NCBI RefSeq assembly: GCF_000002865.3
Contig: NW_001865039.1
Location: 492,527 to 556,526 of the forward strand
Length of the DNA: 64,000 nucleotides
DNA from: Monosiga brevicollis MX1
Lineage: Eukaryota; Opisthokonta; Choanoflagellata; Craspedida; Salpingoecidae
Reading direction: 5' to 3'
The notes under the pieces are model-generated. The model did no database searches, had not been told where the DNA came from, and saw only the letters and a list, made by a program, of their open reading frames with translations. The position numbers were made by a program, and so were the translations under genes. This document shows, piece after piece, positions 1,536 to 25,360 of the stretch; position 1 is the stretch's first letter, and every line of letters begins with the position of its first letter.

Positions 1536-6045
<4,510 letters not shown>

Positions 6046-13612: not shown

Positions 13613-15192
13613 ATGAGAATGGCGCTACGACGACGGATGGCGGAGCTGGCCGAATTGTCGGCCAGTGCTGGCGTAGCCCAGGGTGTCGCGCACCGAGCAA
13701 CCAGAAAAGTCAAGACAAGGGCGGTGACAGGTAAAGAAGAGCTGAAGGATGCACCCCCAAGTGTGAAGCCCAAACTTGAACCGCTGGATGGCAGCATGGA
13801 TATCAATGTCAAGCCAGCAGTCGATCAGCACCTGCCGGTCAAGATTGAAGTCGAGGAACCTCACCTAGCTGAGCTGAAAGTGGGAAGCCTCGAACATGAG
13901 CCTGCTTACTGGCGACAGCACATTGACAATATCCGCCACATGCGCCGGCACCGGTATGCTCTCCCCGCTTTGTCAGGGACAGGCGCCCGCGCTTCACAAC
14001 TCGCTGCGCCGCTTGATTGACCTTGGAGCCCTGCTCTAGGAATGCTCCCGTCGATTCCATGGGCTGTGAAACGCTGACCGACCCGAACACTCCCCCAGCA
14101 GTTGCAAGATTTCACGTGCTCGTCTCTCTGATGCTTTCTTCCCAGGTGAGAGAGGCGCTGTGCCGCCACAATGTCCCATGCGTGACATCTTCTTTTCACG
14201 ATAAGCTCGTATTCTAGACCAAGGACGCCATGACAGCTGCCGCAACGCGACGTCTACAGGCCTTGCCTGGAGGGCTAACGCCCAAGTCGATGGCAAGCAT
14301 GGAGCCAGAGGCTATAGCTCAAGTCATTTATGGTGCGAAAAGATGTCTCCATGAGCCGACACCTCGTTCCAATCCCCAACCTTGCCTTGAAGCTTTCATC
14401 AAGCAGCCAACCTGCCGTTGCATATTGATATTGACCTTACTAGGTGTTGGATTCTGGCGGCGCAAGGGTGAGTATATTCACAAGACAGCCAAGATTCTCT
14501 TGGCTGAACACAATGGCGACGTACCCGCCACCATTGCTGAGCTCGTCAAACTGCCTGGCGTGGGAATGAAGATGGCCCAGATTGCCATGGCCGTGGCCCA
14601 TAATGTGAGTGAAGTCGATGTGAACAGCTTCTTGATCCCGCCACCCCACTCCAAATGATGGCACCGTAACACGGACCGTGTTCTGTTGCTCGAACCCTAC
14701 CAGACAGTGACGGGTATCGGCATCGATGTCCATTGTCATCGCATCGCCAATCGCTTGGCTTGGTGTGACACGGCCCAAAAGACGCCGGAGCACACTCGTG
14801 TTGCACTCGAGCGTTGGCTACCTCGTGAACTGTGGGGAGAAATCAATCTCCTGCTCGTCGGTTTTGGCCAACAGATATGTCTACCTCGAGGCCCAAAGTG
14901 TCACAGTTGCTTAAACCGGGACATTTGCCCTGCAGCAGCTCAGAGCCTTGCAGCTAAACAACTCGAAGCTGAAGGTCAAGTCACTGCCAAGACCGCCAAG
15001 ACTGCTAAAACTGCCAAGGCTGCTACGACCACCAAGATCACCAAGACTACCAAAACCACCAAGACGACCGCCACGAGCCAAAGAGGGCACAACGCAGCCA
15101 AGCGCTCCACGCCGGCCAAAAACGCCAGTTCGGCAACTCGACGCACGCGCACACGACAATCGCGATCAAGCCCTGACTTGAACGACTGGTAA
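13613..15192 (+). CDS. NTHL1: Endonuclease III-like DNA glycosylase/AP lyase
   Basis: A bifunctional base-excision-repair glycosylase for oxidised pyrimidines. Five phase-consistent exons (13613-13953, 14040-14145, 14218-14332, 14444-14604, 14704-15192) give 403 residues. Seen in order: [12 protein letters not shown] and [10 protein letters not shown] leading into the fold; [23 protein letters not shown]; the helix-hairpin-helix [18 protein letters not shown] with the catalytic Lys; [15 protein letters not shown] with the catalytic Asp; [18 protein letters not shown]; and the [4Fe-4S] set [18 protein letters not shown] (C-x6-C-x2-C-x5-C). After the cluster is a tail of about 90 residues made of Lys/Thr/Ala triplets and Arg/Ser-rich sequence, absent from human NTHL1. 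An alternative start is the in-frame ATG at 13619. The N-terminus is basic; mitochondrial versus nuclear targeting is unresolved. Confidence 0.95.
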
Positions 15193-15495: not shown

Positions 15496-17943
15496 TTAGA
15501 GCTTGACGATAGCCAGTTGGAACTTTGCGTTCTTGATGGTCTGCTCGCCCTCAACGGAGACAGTAAGTCCCTCAGGGGCGCCTTCCTCCAACTTGAAGCC
15601 AACGCTTTCGGTGATGAAGGCAGCGCGGTTCTTGATCACCTCCGCCAACTGCACCTCGGTGTCATCCTGGATCATGCGGAAGAAGACACGGATCTGTGGA
15701 TTTTATGAGGGGAAAACCAAGCACAGACGAGCACAGATGAGATCAGCGACACTGACAAACGCAGCCCGCACAGCACCACGCAGGTTTAGAAAGTGTACCG
15801 TATCAGTGGGAGTGATGTTGCCTTGCTTGCGAAGCTTCTGGACGCGGTTCACCAGCTCTCGCGCGTAGCCTTCCTCGAGCATGTCGCGGTTTTGCTCAAC
15901 TGCAAGGCGAATTGTGGAAAAGATGAGAACGATTTAGAAATTATCCATCGGCATGAAAAGCGAGAAGGTAATTCATCATACCGTTGAGCAGGACCAGAAT
16001 GTCGTTGTCCGTCTGAGCACGGTACTTGGACTCGGTACCCGCGGCAAACTCATAACGCAGAGAAATGTCGGTTCCGGACAGGGTGTGGCCGCACACCTCA
16101 ATGCTGCCGTTGGTCTGTACACCCAGAATCACACCCGATGTGTAAGGTGTGAGAAGTCATCAAGCTGCAAGTCTTGAGACCATAGTTGATACATTGAGGC
16201 CAGAAAGAAAACTTGATACAATGACTGGTGTTGAATCAAGCGACACCAAACACACAAGTGTTCATGGCACGCGCACAAGTGCATACAAACCTGATAGCCC
16301 TGCAGAGCTTCGTGAGACAGACCGATGACGGCTTTGTGGATGGCCTTGTAGTCGTTCTAGATACCACACCAATGGTCAGATACTCAAAAATGCACTTGTA
16401 ACTCGCCTTTCAAGTCGCTCTAACGATTTTGATCGAATCCTTACCTTGAAGCGGACACCAAGGTTACGGCTGTCGGGCTGGCCCTTAAGCTGTGATGATT
16501 AAGGGGAAAAAAAAAAAAAAAAAAAAAGGGTTCAGCTTTGTTCCGGTGCTTGTTTGTCAAAACCACAGACGACAGACACACCGTAACATTGTAGGGCGAT
16601 TCATCCGCGGACAGGGTGATGCGCTGCACGTTAAGCTCGGAGAGAATGTACTCCTCCAAGTGACGAATGTCATCCAGCAGGAAGGGAGTCTAATGCACAG
16701 CATGACAAGCAATGATGAGATCAAGGACGCTTCTATTCCAAAGCAGGTAGGACACAAGGGTTGTGTCTGACCTTGGAGACAATAACAAGCTCTTGCAGAG
16801 GGTACTTGATGGGAATGTTCTCACGCTCACGCACAATGCTGCGGGTCAGGATGATGAATAGCAAGTGAGTACCAGTAAAAAGCAGATGACTAGCCATTTG
16901 GCTGACAAAAAATACAGGGGTGCGGGGCCATCGAGTTGGCGACCATGCCGAGTCATTGAGCTTTACAAAAAATGCCTTTTCGACAACTTACCGTCCAGCT
17001 TCGACGACGCGCTTCATGGCTTCGAACGCACGCACAATGGTCTCGTCCAAATACACAGACTAGCACACACACACAAACACACACACACACACACACACAA
17101 AGCATCGCGCGGTCAATGGATGTCGTGGATTGAAAAGAATATAGGCTACATGCTTGCCAACAGCAACCAGCTTGGTCAGCACACGGAAAAAGCGTCTTAC
17201 CTTGGGCTCGGGAATGAGCTGGAAGTGCACCGAGGCGTCTTCACGAACGCCGTTGATTGTGCGCACGTTATCGCTACCGCTGGCAGCGGCCGGCGTGGCA
17301 ACGCGGCGAGGCGAAGGTGGGGCTGAGCCCTGCATCAATTTGCGAGCCGCCCTGGAGCGCAAAAACATTGTTCAATGAGCATCCACCACCACGATGAAGA
17401 AGAGTGCTCCAAGGGTGAACAAGAATCGTTCCAACCATCACGCAAATGCCAGTCCTTCCCACCCCTGTATTCTTCAACACGAGACAAGCGGTGTGGATAC
17501 GTACCGAAGGATGCGCTTACGATCGGTGCAGCGGTTCACACCCATGGAGAGAAGATCATCATGGCTCAGGTCCACCAGATCAGCGCCGGTCAGACCGTTG
17601 GAAGCAAAGAGCTCCTGGTAGTCTTCCAGCTCGTTGGAGGACAACCAAGCATTCACATTGTCCAGGGACCACTCCGCCACGGCCTCAGCAGCGGCTGTCA
17701 TGGGACCTTGGTGGAGAGTCAGAGCAATGTCGCTCGAGGTTGATACCTTGTGGCCACGGGTGGTCGTACTGGCAGAGGCAGTCACCACAAAAGGACGCAT
17801 GTGCTGGTACATCCACTCGGCGAAGAACGGAGTGAAAGGGCCCATGGTAACAGACATGGTCATCAAGACCTCACCCAGGGCCCACAAAGCAAGCGCCGCA
17901 TCGTCATCGCTGTTGGCGCCCTGGCATCGTGACCAGACCAAGC

Positions 17944-17992
<49 letters not shown>

Positions 17993-20900
17993 GGGGAAAA
18001 AACAGCTGTGAACAAGGGTGTGTCCGTAATCCCAAGAAACGGACGCCAAGGCACTGCAAGGCCCAACCCAAGGCTTGAATGCCGGCGAGCACAAACGCTA
18101 TTGTCGATACCTTGAGACGCTTGCGGTTGAAGCGAATGAACCAATTGGTCAGGTTGTCCACAAAAGACAGCAACTTGGGCACAACAGTGTAGAGACGGTA
18201 GGCTGTGAACAAGACACGGGGGGGGTGAATCAATGCGACTCGTGTACAAGATCGGACTTTAAAAAAGGAAGCAATCACAAACGGCGCAAAACGTTCAAAG
18301 CGTCAGCCGGGTGGTAACGGTGCAGACTGACCAGCCATCTCTTGCTTGACAAAGCGAATCAAGTCTTGCGTGAAGGCGAGGATCCACTTGTCCATCTTAT
18401 TGGTCGACGGGCAGGCCTTGGCCGAGTCAAAGGTGAATGGACGGCCAACAGCTTGCTGCAAATTTTTTGAGAACAGAAAAAAAAAACACCCAAAAGGCGG
18501 TACACGAAAGGCAGGATGATGAGTGATGTGTGGTGCTTGGCAGCATGTTGACTGCACTTTTGACAAGCAGCGAGGGCTGCCATTCTGACAGAAAGAAAGA
18601 GAGACGGAAAAAAGACATCGAACCTTCCAACGCTCCGCCTGTTGCTCAAAGAACCGGAAGGCGTTCAACCAGGGCAGAAAGACATCCTTGATCAAAGCCT
18701 AGAGGTTCAAACGTGAACAGAACGCATGGTTGTTAAAAGGGAGAGGATAACAGCAAACACCAAAGGCCCTTGTACAGGTGTTGTGTCTGAGACATACCTG
18801 CACGCCCTTGCGCTCAAAGCGAAGGTTCTCGGCGCGCACAGCTGGCGAAGTGATGAGATACAAACTACGCACGCGAATTCAGGCACGATGAAACAAGGTG
18901 GTAGCAAAACACAAAGGGGTGATTGTGTATTCAAGCCACAGGCAGAATGTAAAGCGCCGTACGCAAGGGGTGGCGCACGAACCGCAAGGCATCGGCACCA
19001 TCCTCTTCAAGGACAAGGTTGGGATCAGGATAGTTTTTGAGACGCTTGCTCATTTTTTTGCCGTCACCGGCCAAAACCAGGCCGTTCACAATCAGATTCT
19101 TCCACGGAGGCTGATCGAAGAGCAGCGTGCTGATGACCATGAGCGTGTAGAACCTGTCGAATAATGAAAAGATGAACAAAATCAAAAGCACAAGTCGTCA
19201 GGTGAGTCGGAGGGTGACGCGTTCGAGCGACCTGTGCATTGGCAACCAGGGAAAAAGCGCACCAGCCACGAGTTTGGTCGACGCCCTCGGCAATAAAGTC
19301 GGCGGGAAAGTTCTTTTCAAATCGCTCCTACCCAGAGTACAACAAGAGGCAATCAGATGTTAGCAGTGCAAAGATACTACGACAACGCACACATGACGCT
19401 GACGGGTGGGCACTGTGGGCCTACCTTGTTTTCAAAGGGATAGTGGACCTGAGCATAGGGCATAGAGCCACTCTCAAACCAGCAGTCAAAGACTTGGGGC
19501 ACACGGCGCAGGACACCCTTGCCCTGCTTGGAAGGGATGGTGATGTCGTCCAAATGCTCGCGGTGAAGGTCCTCGATGTCCGTACGGCCAGAGAGCTCCT
19601 TGAGCTCCTCGATGGAGCCAATGCAGACGACTTCTTCATAATCCTCGCTGACCCAGATGGGAATGGGAGTGCCCCAGAAACGGTTGCGCTATCAAAAAAA
19701 AAAAAAAAAATGATAATAATAATAATAATCATCATCATAAGAGTCAAATCATAACAGAACCAAAGTAAGTGCGCTATTCTCCGTTGTGCTTTTGCATCAA
19801 AACAAGATTCATTTGATGTCACGACAAAGCAAAAGCGAGCTTTGAGGTGCTGTAGGCTTACGGAGAAGGCCCAGTCGCGAGCGTCGGCCAGCCAATTGTG
19901 GAAACGGCCATCGCGGATGTTTTGAGGAACCCTAAGGGCAACACAAGGATTGAGTGAGACAGATTTGATTCATTGTTTCGCAAAGCCCGCCAACATGGTG
20001 CTTTTTGATGCAAGGTCAGAGCTGCAAGGGTGCTTGATCGTACCAGTAAGTGTTCTGGTTGTTCTGAACAAGCTTGTCCTTGATGTCTTCGACACGGATG
20101 AACCAAGAGTCGACCGTCTTGCGGACCAGGGGCGTACCCGATCTAAACAGACGAATGCACATGAATGATTCACACATACACGGGCAGTTGGGGAGACAAT
20201 GCAGTGAGCACTCTGGCCAAGCTCAGCCAATGAGCCCGGCGTCGGCAAGTTCGTACCGCCAGCAATGGGCGTAGGCGTGCTTCACACGCCCAGCCTGGAA
20301 CATCTTGCCCTCATCCTTGAGACGCTTGATGATGACCTATGCACAAAAGATGGCATGACGTACAATGCAACATGTCATCAAACCACAAAGCAAGAAGCTC
20401 GCAAAAGCCAGGACATACGTTGTCAGCATCCTTGATGTACATGCCCTTGTAGTCGGAAACCTCGTCCGTGTACTTGCCACTGCACAAAGTGAAGGCAGTG
20501 GAATGGGAGCCGGTGGAGGGTGACATGACAGCCTGCGTTTACATCCGAGTCCAGAAAAAAAAGAACGAGGGGTGGGTTAAAGCGCACTGACCAGTCGTCC
20601 AACGGGCAGGGAATGTCGGTGGCAGTGACGACGCCGGCCGCCAGGCAGACACGGTAATCGTCCTACGCGGCATCGTTGTTGCATGATTAAGATGAGGTTC
20701 AAGGCAAAGAGGTGTGGTGGATCCAGCACACATTTGGCATGTATTAAACGCACTTCACCGTGACCGGGAGCGTTGTGGACAATGCCGGTACCGCTGTCGT
20801 CAGTGACGTAGGTGTCGACGAGCACCTTGAATGCGCGGTCCTCGAGGCGCTTGAAGTAAGGAAAAAGAGGCTCGTAACGACGGCCACGGAGAGTTTCACC

Positions 20901-22819
20901 CTTGAATTCTTCAATGATCTCGACCGACTTGTCGCCCTCCTTGTACAGGCAGCCCTTGCCGAAGAGACGGGACTTGAGGGCGATGTACACGCGCTCACGC
21001 TTGGTGTCTGCCGATACCATGGTGCAACATGTAAACCATGAGGTACCGTGCGCGCCTGCACCAGAGCCGATGCGTGACGACCTCAACCCATGTTCAACAG
21101 CCGGAAAAGTTCGTACCGCGAAACTTGACGTAGTCAAGCGTGGGGTGCACGCACAAAGCCAAGTTGGAAGGCAGGGTCCAGGGCGTGGTGGTCCACGCCA
21201 AGAAAGCGGCATCTTCATCCACCAGCTTGAAGGAAACCGTCACTGTGGCGGGCAAGCACCGAGGCATGGCGGTAAATGTATTGCGTACGATGACATACTC
21301 ACCCGATGTTGGAAAATAACAAGCACGCACCGGCAGGATCATCGACATCATGCATGTCCTGATTGGCCTCAAAGTTCGACAGAGGGGTCGACAGAGCCGT
21401 GGAGAAAGGCATGACCTTGAAGCCGCGATAGACCATGTCCTTGTCAAAAATCTGCTTGAACACCCACCTGCCGAGCCAATATCATAAGGAGACGATTTTT
21501 TGCCAATTGAGGCACAGGCGGCAAGCGGGTCGGGGGCTTCAAGGGAGTCGAGGTCCAAAGGCGACATGACGAAAACATGGCCCTAAATCTGGTCCGAGAA
21601 GCAGCCACTACGCACCAGACACTTTCCATGAACCAAGGATAGAGAGTCTTGTAGTCATTGTCAAAGTCAATCCAGCGACCGAGGCGGTTCACGGTATAGC
21701 GCCACTCGTCGGCGTAGCGCATGACGATGGAACGACATTCCTCGTTGTACTTGGCAATGCCCATTTTCTCAACATCAGCGCTGCCCGAAATCTGCAGGCA
21801 GAAAGACGTAAAACATGCGTGAGGAAGACCGACATGTTTTGGAAGAGCGGCAGCAACGCTCAAAAGGCCCGCCCACTCACGCCAAGCTTCTTGTCAATCT
21901 CAAACTCAACGGGCACGCCATGGGTGTCCCAACCAAAGCGGCGCTCGACGTGGTGGCCAGTTTGGTGGGCAAATCGGGTGACAACATCCTTGATGGTGCC
22001 GGCCAGAAGATGGCCATAGTGGGGAGTGCCGGTGGCGAAAGGCGGCCCATCGTAAAAGTTGTACTCGGGGCGGCCACGGGAAAACTCGAGCGAAGTCTGA
22101 AAGGCGTTCATGTCTGTCCACAGCTTCAGGATCTCCGTCTCCATGGTAGCAAAGTGAAAGCCTGCTTGGGCAAGAGTGTGGGAGTGTGGGATGAGATTGA
22201 CAACCCCAATGACGTGTTTCAAAGAAGCTGGCTCGCGACAACGGCAAACGTGGGCATCGACGTACGCTCGCCGGACGACTCATCCTTGCTCTTGTTGGCA
22301 GCAGCCTAAAAAGGTTGGAGTGAACCAGAAGCAGAGCTTGAGATGGACCAGATGCTAATAGCTGCATCGGCTTGGCAGCAGGAGGGGGCATGTGGGCGTT
22401 GCACGCATAACGAGACAAACCTTGGCGGGTTTGGCCTCTGCCTTCTTCTCAGACTTGCTGGGCTTGCTCTCGGCACCAGCAGCCTTGGGCTCGGCCTTCT
22501 TGTCTGCTTTGCCCTTCTTCTTGCCCTTGGAAGGCTTGGCACCAGGCAAATCCTCGCCAGTCAGCTCTTTGTAGGCGGTCTTGAGGCCCACGAGGGTTTG
22601 CACAGCGGCCTCAACCTCCTTCTTGTCAGCGTTGGCGCCCTTGAGCTCGCGAACTTTGGCACCTTGAGCCTCAATCTGCTGCAGCAGGGCTGCGGCACTG
22701 TCACAACGGGCGGAGGAGTAGCGCATTGGCACATTGGCAAGAAATGAGTGAATCGGGGGTGCAGGAGCACAGGCCATGCTAACAAGTAGGCTCACGCACT
22801 CGGCAGATGTAGCCGCCAT
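15496..22819 (-). CDS. IARS1: Cytosolic isoleucyl-tRNA synthetase with WHEP and internal SAM domains
   Basis: Charges tRNA-Ile with isoleucine. First exons: 22819-22800, 22697-22421, 22305-22266 and 22161-21881, in consistent phase. Residues 1-60 form a WHEP domain ([20 protein letters not shown]), followed by a Lys/Ala/Ser linker, then the catalytic core: [15 protein letters not shown] (HIGH motif), [52 protein letters not shown] (editing), and [15 protein letters not shown] (KMSKS, about 19040-19066). The anticodon-binding region begins normally ([16 protein letters not shown]) but then carries a complete SAM domain in the same exon (17920-17505) before resuming at [11 protein letters not shown] and [15 protein letters not shown]. 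The protein ends at FQLAIVKL, so the C-terminal UNE-I repeats of vertebrates are missing. Orthology is certain; intermediate exon edges were only partly set. Confidence 0.95.
17062..17099. repeat. (CA)n tract next to an IARS splice acceptor
   Basis: On the coding (minus) strand this is a (TG)n tract with one TTT interruption lying directly upstream of the intron's terminal AG, ahead of the exon coding [15 protein letters not shown]. Confidence 0.85.
17947..17984. repeat. (AC)n tract upstream of the SAM-exon acceptor
   Basis: About 19 AC units. On the coding strand it is (GT)n ending about 25-30 bases before the acceptor at 17923-17921 of the exon that encodes the SAM domain. Confidence 0.88.
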
Positions 22820-23267: not shown

Positions 23268-23304
<37 letters not shown>

Positions 23305-23916
23305 GCTCGCCATCTTGATAGTCGAGCCTTTGTCACACTTTCAATGGTCAAAGTGTATCAGATTTGTCTCTTTTGGCTGCTGTGCTGGCATCATCACGAG
23401 TCGGCGCTCTGTGAATGGCGCCAGTCGGTGGTCGGAACCAGACACAAGCACGCGCCTTCACTCACAGAGTATCAAGATTGTTGCTTGTCATGCCGCTTCG
23501 ACAGGTCTGGCGCGGATGCAAGTAGCGACATCTTAGATTGCGACCCGCCGAATTGGCAATAACCTTTGATGATAACTGGGCCTGCAAGGTCCGAACCAAC
23601 CACTCCACCGAGGATGATTTTCCTGTTTAAACAGATCAGAGTACCTCATTTTTTGAAGAATTTGAACAGAAAAACTTTTTGTGCAGCGTATACAAAAGGT
23701 AAAGGCCTTGGTTACGATGCAATTGTCAGCAATTTACAACACTTGGGGTTCGAGCGTCGCCGTTCGTCTCCGACGCCCCCGGCATCCATGGCCTTGGCTG
23801 ACTCCATCTGCTCCTGTGCGTTGATGCTGAGCTACCCTTGGACCATACGTGGCACTGATGCGATCTGTATCGGTGCGACTTGCTAGCTGCTTGATTTGAA
23901 GCAAGACCAAATCAAA
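22820..23916. other. Divergent intergenic region IARS/CFAP299
   Basis: About 1.1 kb between two divergent start codons. It contains a (TG)16 tract at 23271-23302. No coding sequence with family resemblance was found on either strand. Presumed promoters of both genes lie here. Confidence 0.6.
23271..23302 (+). repeat. (TG)n microsatellite
   Basis: Sixteen TG units in the IARS/CFAP299 divergent spacer. Confidence 0.92.
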
Positions 23917-25360
23917 ATGGATATCACACAGTTTGCAACCTATGAAGACTTTTTGGACAGTCAAGTGCAGCCCATTGACCTCTACTATCTCGAGGTAGGC
24001 ACCTGTCATGGTGCAAACGCGCGGCTGTGGCCCCGCTCACGCATCATCCTTTCTCTGATGTGCAAGAACCGCGTCATCACAACCTCTTGTTGCTGTTTCT
24101 TTCCCTCGCCACATCCGCCTCACTTTCACGCATCACCCACACTTCTGGCGCTTGGATTGGCATGATCTGGGGTAGGATGAGGAGGTGGTTCGGCAACTCG
24201 TCGAGCTCGGCTTCCGCGGCACTGGCGAGGTTTGTGGCTGGCCCTACTTTATCCTTGGCTATCTTTTTATCTTATCTATTTTGTTAGATGCTGATGTGTC
24301 ATCAGTCAAGCACCTTCCTGCTGCTTTACATCCTACATCTTCGTACCTCACGTTGTTCGTTGTTGGGCGCTGTGGGCATTCATGACAGGTGGTAAAGCGC
24401 GAAGAATTTGAAGCCAAGAAGCGCGAGGCCGAGTTGCTGCGACAACAGCAGCGCAACAAGGGCAAATTGTACGGCTTTGACTCCACCTGAACACCAGCAT
24501 GGCGACCGCATCTCATTTTCACGCCGCACGCACCCTGGCTGTAGAGTCTTGGTCGGTGAAAAGTTTCACGACTTGAGTCCTTTTTTGGAGGCTTTGGCGC
24601 AACGTGAGGAAGCACACCGTACCGGCAAGATGATGGTACGCTGCTACAAGTTTCAATAAACCATCCCATGCTCGCAAACATGCTACACATTGGCCCCATG
24701 TCCGCATTGCTCACCGCCTTGGCGTGAGCAGAGCATTGTCTTTATCCGTGACCGGAATGCGCAAGGCCAAGAGGTTTCAGGCTACATTGACCTGGCTGCC
24801 CGCTTCAAGGTCAGATCCATTTTTCGTCGCCCCCTTCAGGCGTTTTTTTTTTTTTTTCTGGATGGGTTAAACTGTTTTGTTTGTTTTCTCCTGGATGGGT
24901 TGAGCTGTTCGCGTGACTTGCTACATTTTGGTATTCACCTGGCTCGTGCCGAATGGTGCATCAGAATGAGGCTTTTGAGCAGTATTTTTCGGGCAAGAAG
25001 AAGTTGATTCCCAAGCCAACTGACTTGAGGTGCGGTAGTCCCTTCCTGCTTTTTGCTCAGTTCCACCCACACTCCTGCTACCGTTTTGCGCTGCTTGACT
25101 GACTTGGTCACGACTTTGCATGCGAATGTAGTTTCTACAACTGGAGCACGGGCTCGGCATACGCATCAAGCTCGGAACATTATCAAGTAACCACAGACAA
25201 CGATGCCAGCGTGGCGTTCAAGAACAAGCGGGATCGCAAGATGGTCTTTGTTGACCCGGCTCGGGTTACCCCGGGTGATAACAGCAGTCGTACAGCCCTG
25301 CACACGGATGAATACATGCAGGTGGTCTTTTACGACCACGTCACTCGCATCACAGCTTAA
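23917..25360 (+). CDS. CFAP299: Cilia- and flagella-associated protein 299
   Basis: Ortholog of CFAP299 (human C4orf22), a conserved ciliary protein of unknown biochemical role. Seven phase-consistent exons (23917-23994, 24176-24229, 24389-24468, 24545-24635, 24732-24809, 24965-25029, 25132-25360) give 224 residues, close to the human 233. Seen in order: [124 protein letters not shown] and FYDHVTRITA before the stop. The match runs end to end, so start and stop are well supported. Occurrence in a flagellated protist agrees with the ciliary assignment. Confidence 0.95.

Follow-up and report, generated by a model that had tools for sequence, protein, structure and literature searches.

A predicted SAM domain within the anticodon-binding domain of isoleucyl-tRNA synthetase from Monosiga brevicollis

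The isoleucyl-tRNA synthetase gene

The window, a 64,000-nucleotide stretch of the Monosiga brevicollis genome, contains a gene for isoleucyl-tRNA synthetase (IleRS) on its minus strand at 15496..22819. Its exons were joined by hand, guided by sequence anchors, giving a splice model of 30 coding exons that encodes 1300 amino acids and ends in a stop codon. All 29 introns are of the GT-AG type and measure 82-190 nt each. Against the full-length ileS profile TIGR00392 the spliced protein scores 889.6 bits (cut-off 621.4), which identifies it as an IleRS, and its top match among solved structures is a cytoplasmic IleRS chain (9w01_B; 1119.7 bits across residues 112-896). We take 9w01_B to be the human enzyme and 8wnd_A, used below, to be the yeast enzyme. 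Class I synthetases carry the consensus motifs HIGH and KMSKS, and direct reading of the translation finds these signatures as HYGH and KMSKR. Pfam domains, all above cut-off, are arranged in the order WHEP-TRS (residues 11-61), tRNA-synt_1 (123-745), Anticodon_1 (800-899), SAM_2/SAM_1 (933-994) and DUF5915 (1097-1264).

On the side towards which the gene is transcribed, a convergent reading frame at 14218-15192 (+) presumably encodes an endonuclease III-like protein with a Lys/Thr-rich tail; the divergent upstream neighbour at 23887-25360 (+) is taken, likewise by eye, to resemble a cilia-linked CFAP299-like protein. Long GT/CA runs occur in two IleRS introns (~17945-17985 and ~17063-17100) and upstream of the gene (~23270-23312).

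Two features at the ends of the protein were missing from an earlier note on this DNA. The first is the N-terminal WHEP domain, which lies in exon 2 (22535..22687, minus strand; genome place C56:515061-515213; PF00458, E 1.5e-16, 60.6 bits, cut-off 32.5); a Lys-rich linker and then the small exon 3 connect it to the core. The second is the lack of UNE-I, the C-terminal UBX repeats. Exons 23-30 (15496..17059, minus strand) encode the remainder of Anticodon_1 and a C-terminal region that finishes level with the yeast enzyme, residue 1299/1300 aligning with residue 1071 of 8wnd_A at the alignment end, and a stop codon comes next. A curated table of WHEP-bearing synthetases names GluRS, GlyRS, HisRS, MetRS, ProRS and TrpRS, and IleRS is not among the enzymes in that table (PMC11580382).

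The SAM domain and its insertion site

Exon 21 (17505..17920, minus strand; acceptor CCAG and donor GTACGT, both boundaries exact) encodes the final stretch of the anticodon-binding helix that precedes the insert, a linker, and the SAM domain up to codon 989. The phase-2 intron 17504-17352 interrupts this codon, so that two exons contribute to the SAM domain: its end (AARKL) lies in exon 22 (17201..17351, minus strand), which continues with a Ser/Pro/Ala linker and the restarting core, recognised by an 11-residue stretch. The earlier note had described an exon 17920-17505 that opens with a 16-residue stretch of the anticodon-binding helix and runs in frame into a SAM domain, which agrees exactly with the splice model. 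Its further claim that the SAM domain and the core share one exon holds for the core helix and most of the domain, and fails for AARKL. Ser, Thr, Pro and Ala are abundant in the linkers around the domain.

In the whole spliced protein, residues 933-994 match both SAM profiles above the Pfam cut-off, as expected from the earlier note's assignment (SAM_2, E 7.9e-14, 52.0 bits, cut-off 20.5; SAM_1, E 6.2e-12, 46.1 bits, cut-off 23). The 68-residue SAM piece scanned alone gives E 6.2e-16. Scanned in six frames, the entire genome gives 38 SAM_1 matches, one of them this domain (PF00536; 17495..17674, minus strand; 49.9 bits, E 1.5e-11); this match overruns 10 bases into the intron, the genuine last residues being those in exon 22. 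A chance resemblance was rejected on the E-values from the whole protein and the whole genome.

The SAM domain interrupts Anticodon_1, with profile positions 1-89 matched before it and 98-145 after it. Because the flanking pieces scanned alone score 24.0 and 20.4 bits, under the Anticodon_1 cut-off of 25.1, the join also rests on alignments to solved enzymes. In these, 129 query residues (897-1025) stand opposite 7 residues of 9w01_B, and 127 stand opposite 7 of 8wnd_A, matching the insert of about 110-130 residues, with the synthetase core then restarting, that had been read earlier. Placed by alignment, the SAM domain is in a loop of the anticodon-binding domain. The same site was measured in 39 prokaryotic relatives picked by exact short peptides of the M. 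brevicollis protein, and hence close relatives, mostly gammaproteobacterial. Two of them end short of the site and were excluded from the loop lengths; in the other 37, 5-12 residues separate the fixed anchors, against 136 in the M. brevicollis protein. An alignment query of viral contigs returned 25 IleRS-like loci, and none of the 22 that reach the site has a domain there, many being only 25-30% identical and the alignment rough. In the same contigs a single-protein query gave no match, and a query with the SAM domain alone found no relative. No domain is thus present at this loop in any relative measured, that is, in the two solved enzymes and the prokaryotic and viral-contig sets.

The genome searched comprises 39.47 Mb in 57 contigs, in which cadherin matches, for instance, number at least 150. 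No obvious donor gene for the insert was found in it: the closest other SAM domain, elsewhere on the same contig, is only 48% identical, so the IleRS domain was not recently copied from any SAM domain found in this genome. Direct repeats of at least 12 bases are absent from 17100-18000, and with them any target-site duplication of that length. Six gene loci match PF00133. Two encode IleRS, namely the SAM-bearing gene and one on contig C48. No third IleRS emerged among the other four, as the loci on C39 and C56 gave their top scores with ValRS and those on C53 and C52 with LeuRS. In the C48 gene, the longest open frame is closest to IleRS chains of 921 and 917 residues (8c9e, 1ffy), both of which we take to be bacterial, and less close to the cytoplasmic chain. 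Judged by these matches, the C48 enzyme is of bacterial type. As the genome profile search also gave no SAM match on C48, the SAM domain is on the only cytosolic-type IleRS found.

Possible roles of the inserted domain

Solved sequences matching the SAM domain at E <=0.001 number 24, with names of signalling or scaffold proteins; the closest are the SAM domains of Caskin, ANKS1B, Shank, DGK-delta, Eph receptors and tankyrase. The 45 residues from the first Trp include nine acidic and no basic residues (net -9), and the following 16, which include the last helix, carry a net charge of +6. This charge separation of 15 is the highest among 20 SAM domains compared (next 13, 12 and 12), drawn from ~44 genome places (weakest E 0.2), with L034, L036 and L037 short at the last helix. 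The charge split alone is no proof of binding, and three other SAM domains of the genome come near the same split. A similar acidic/basic split accompanies salt-sensitive head-to-tail polymerisation of the ANKS3 and tankyrase SAM domains (PMC4105859, PMC4980433). At an end-helix position where Caskin has Leu, the aligned IleRS domain has Cys. We take the key Phe of ANKS3 to be equivalent to this position, assigning it without an alignment; a Cys there may weaken the interface.

Because the nearest solved SAM domains are protein-binding and the charges are strongly segregated, we favour docking over RNA binding or a neutral passenger, with moderate confidence. The SAM domain would be a docking module that binds the SAM domain of a partner, or that of another IleRS molecule, through two faces, acidic at the mid-loop and basic at the end helix, and would thereby hold the enzyme in an assembly. 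With a linker on either side, it could dock without disturbing tRNA charging. In this way the domain could stand in, by other means, for the role of the C-terminal UNE-I in vertebrate IleRS. Tethering of IleRS to a complex, put forward in the earlier note, is plausible on these sequence grounds.

The SAM domain might instead have entered a tolerant loop and remained there with little function. Such a neutral passenger would fit the variable length of the loop among relatives (5-12 residues) and the Ser/Thr/Pro/Ala-rich linkers. The domain is, however, intact and well above both Pfam cut-offs, and the in-frame codon use of the insert fits the gene: in the upstream linker, the SAM domain and the downstream linker alike, the coding frame exceeds the other five frames in gene-like codon use. 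We regard this explanation as unlikely.

Unlikely, too, is a role in which the SAM domain, together with WHEP, adds nucleic-acid binding and keeps tRNA(Ile) or another RNA close to the anticodon-binding domain. The SAM domain does sit within that very domain, and its last helix is strongly basic. RNA-binding SAM domains carry a G-A-R-x-K pattern; this pattern is absent from the IleRS domain, the remainder of which is very acidic, and a like stretch occurs in another SAM domain of the genome (L003). Furthermore, the best 60 of 78 solved matches at E <=10 include no Smaug or Vts1 chain, both assumed to be present in the collection. Given this and the signalling and scaffold names of the 24 closest matches, RNA binding, which the earlier note had offered as an alternative, appears weaker than tethering. 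A SAM domain has also been connected with a synthetase and its tRNA in Arabidopsis: the plant protein HP30-2 is proposed to pass tRNA on to LeuRS2 during import. HP30-2 is a separate protein, said to be of the RNA-binding type, that acts in mitochondrial import (PMC8067559).

A more specific form of docking would be a self-assembling IleRS. Head-to-tail SAM polymers could build salt- or state-dependent filaments, and charging of tRNA(Ile) by the only cytosolic enzyme would then be controlled by assembly. From the sequence features above we consider this quite doubtful.

Docking to a partner or to itself, the reading we prefer, can be set against several known systems. The M. brevicollis IleRS has its catalytic, editing and anticodon domains in common with human and yeast cytosolic IleRS; unlike them, it has an internal SAM domain and an N-terminal WHEP domain and has no C-terminal UNE-I. 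The closest precedent is AsnRS of plants: its cytosolic form, and only that form, likewise contains a small inserted helical domain. That case differs in the enzyme, in the domain, which is WHEP and not SAM, and in the place, the catalytic domain (PMC7564348). Vertebrate IARS1 also has a partner-binding addition, UNE-I, which consists of tandem UBX domains and binds EARS1/EPRS1. UNE-I is C-terminal and ubiquitin-like (PMC9643514), and it is absent from M. brevicollis IleRS. Judged by sequence family (Shank, DGK-delta, tankyrase) and by the acidic/basic split (ANKS3, tankyrase), the domain appears similar to SAM domains that associate through mid-loop and end-helix surfaces, from which it differs in lying inside a synthetase and in having Cys at the key end-helix position.

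The earlier note knew of no described IleRS with an internal SAM domain, and we found none among the open-access papers listed (titles, abstract openings and passages). Searches there on IleRS or synthetases with SAM, on WHEP in IleRS or choanoflagellates, on choanoflagellate synthetases and on the multisynthetase complex did not find this architecture described; a domain database may already list it as an automatic annotation. An added domain on a synthetase is known, and the SAM type at this place seems to be new. Added synthetase domains serve as a model for how housekeeping enzymes gained new links on the line to animals. In M. brevicollis, which is probably closely related to animals, IleRS has been fitted out differently, with SAM and WHEP instead of UNE-I. 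This architecture suggests that a housekeeping enzyme gained its own, independent means of being tethered to partners. The insertion also suggests that the loop is able to hold a folded domain in a probably essential gene. The SAM-bearing IleRS is a direct test case for whether synthetases were already organised into complexes before animals.

Splicing, gene model and other synthetase loci

The claim in the earlier note that alternative splicing "cannot explain" the SAM domain was overstated, as weak in-frame alternatives exist and the domain lies in two exons. Splice sites were scored by matrices built from the gene's own introns, with candidates scoring at least as high as its weakest real site. 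Three in-frame pairs would delete the SAM domain cleanly and keep the core flanks (donor 17769, score 6.5, to acceptor 17322, score 3.3; 17746, 5.4, to 17329, 2.6; 17706, 4.1, to 17322), and a further three (132, 219 and 273 nt) would cut out part of it. If such pairs removed the domain in most molecules, the main enzyme would be an ordinary IleRS. Against this, the acceptors of all six pairs score under the gene median of 6.3, and clean deletion would require introns of 384-447 nt, which exceed all 29 in the model. The strong acceptor of exon 22 at 17351 (8.8) shifts the frame with each of the six upstream donors tested. Splicing-out of the SAM domain is judged unlikely from these scores, and its removal from most molecules very unlikely. 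An assembly or gene-model error that fused two genes is barely credible: the basis is a single assembly, but the core and most of the SAM domain share one open exon, the core restarts in phase with conserved sequence, and the stretch read has no N runs.

We also compared the genome's SAM domains with its synthetase genes. No candidate partner emerged from this comparison: all 43 other SAM places are at least 83 kb from matches to the five families covered (PF00133, PF00587, PF00152, PF00749 and PF01588). At a locus on contig C55, GluRS-type, WHEP (three) and weak ProRS-type matches follow one another; an earlier report describes an EPRS fusion with WHEP domains 1-3 from the choanoflagellate Monosiga brevicollis (PMC4072531). 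LysRS may also carry a WHEP domain: at locus L090 a WHEP match lies at ~3665-3814, directly upstream of LysRS frames 2178-3557 (-) on the same strand. At locus L091, two partial WHEP matches (~1176-1437) lie upstream of AspRS frames 3039-4385 (+), again on the same strand.
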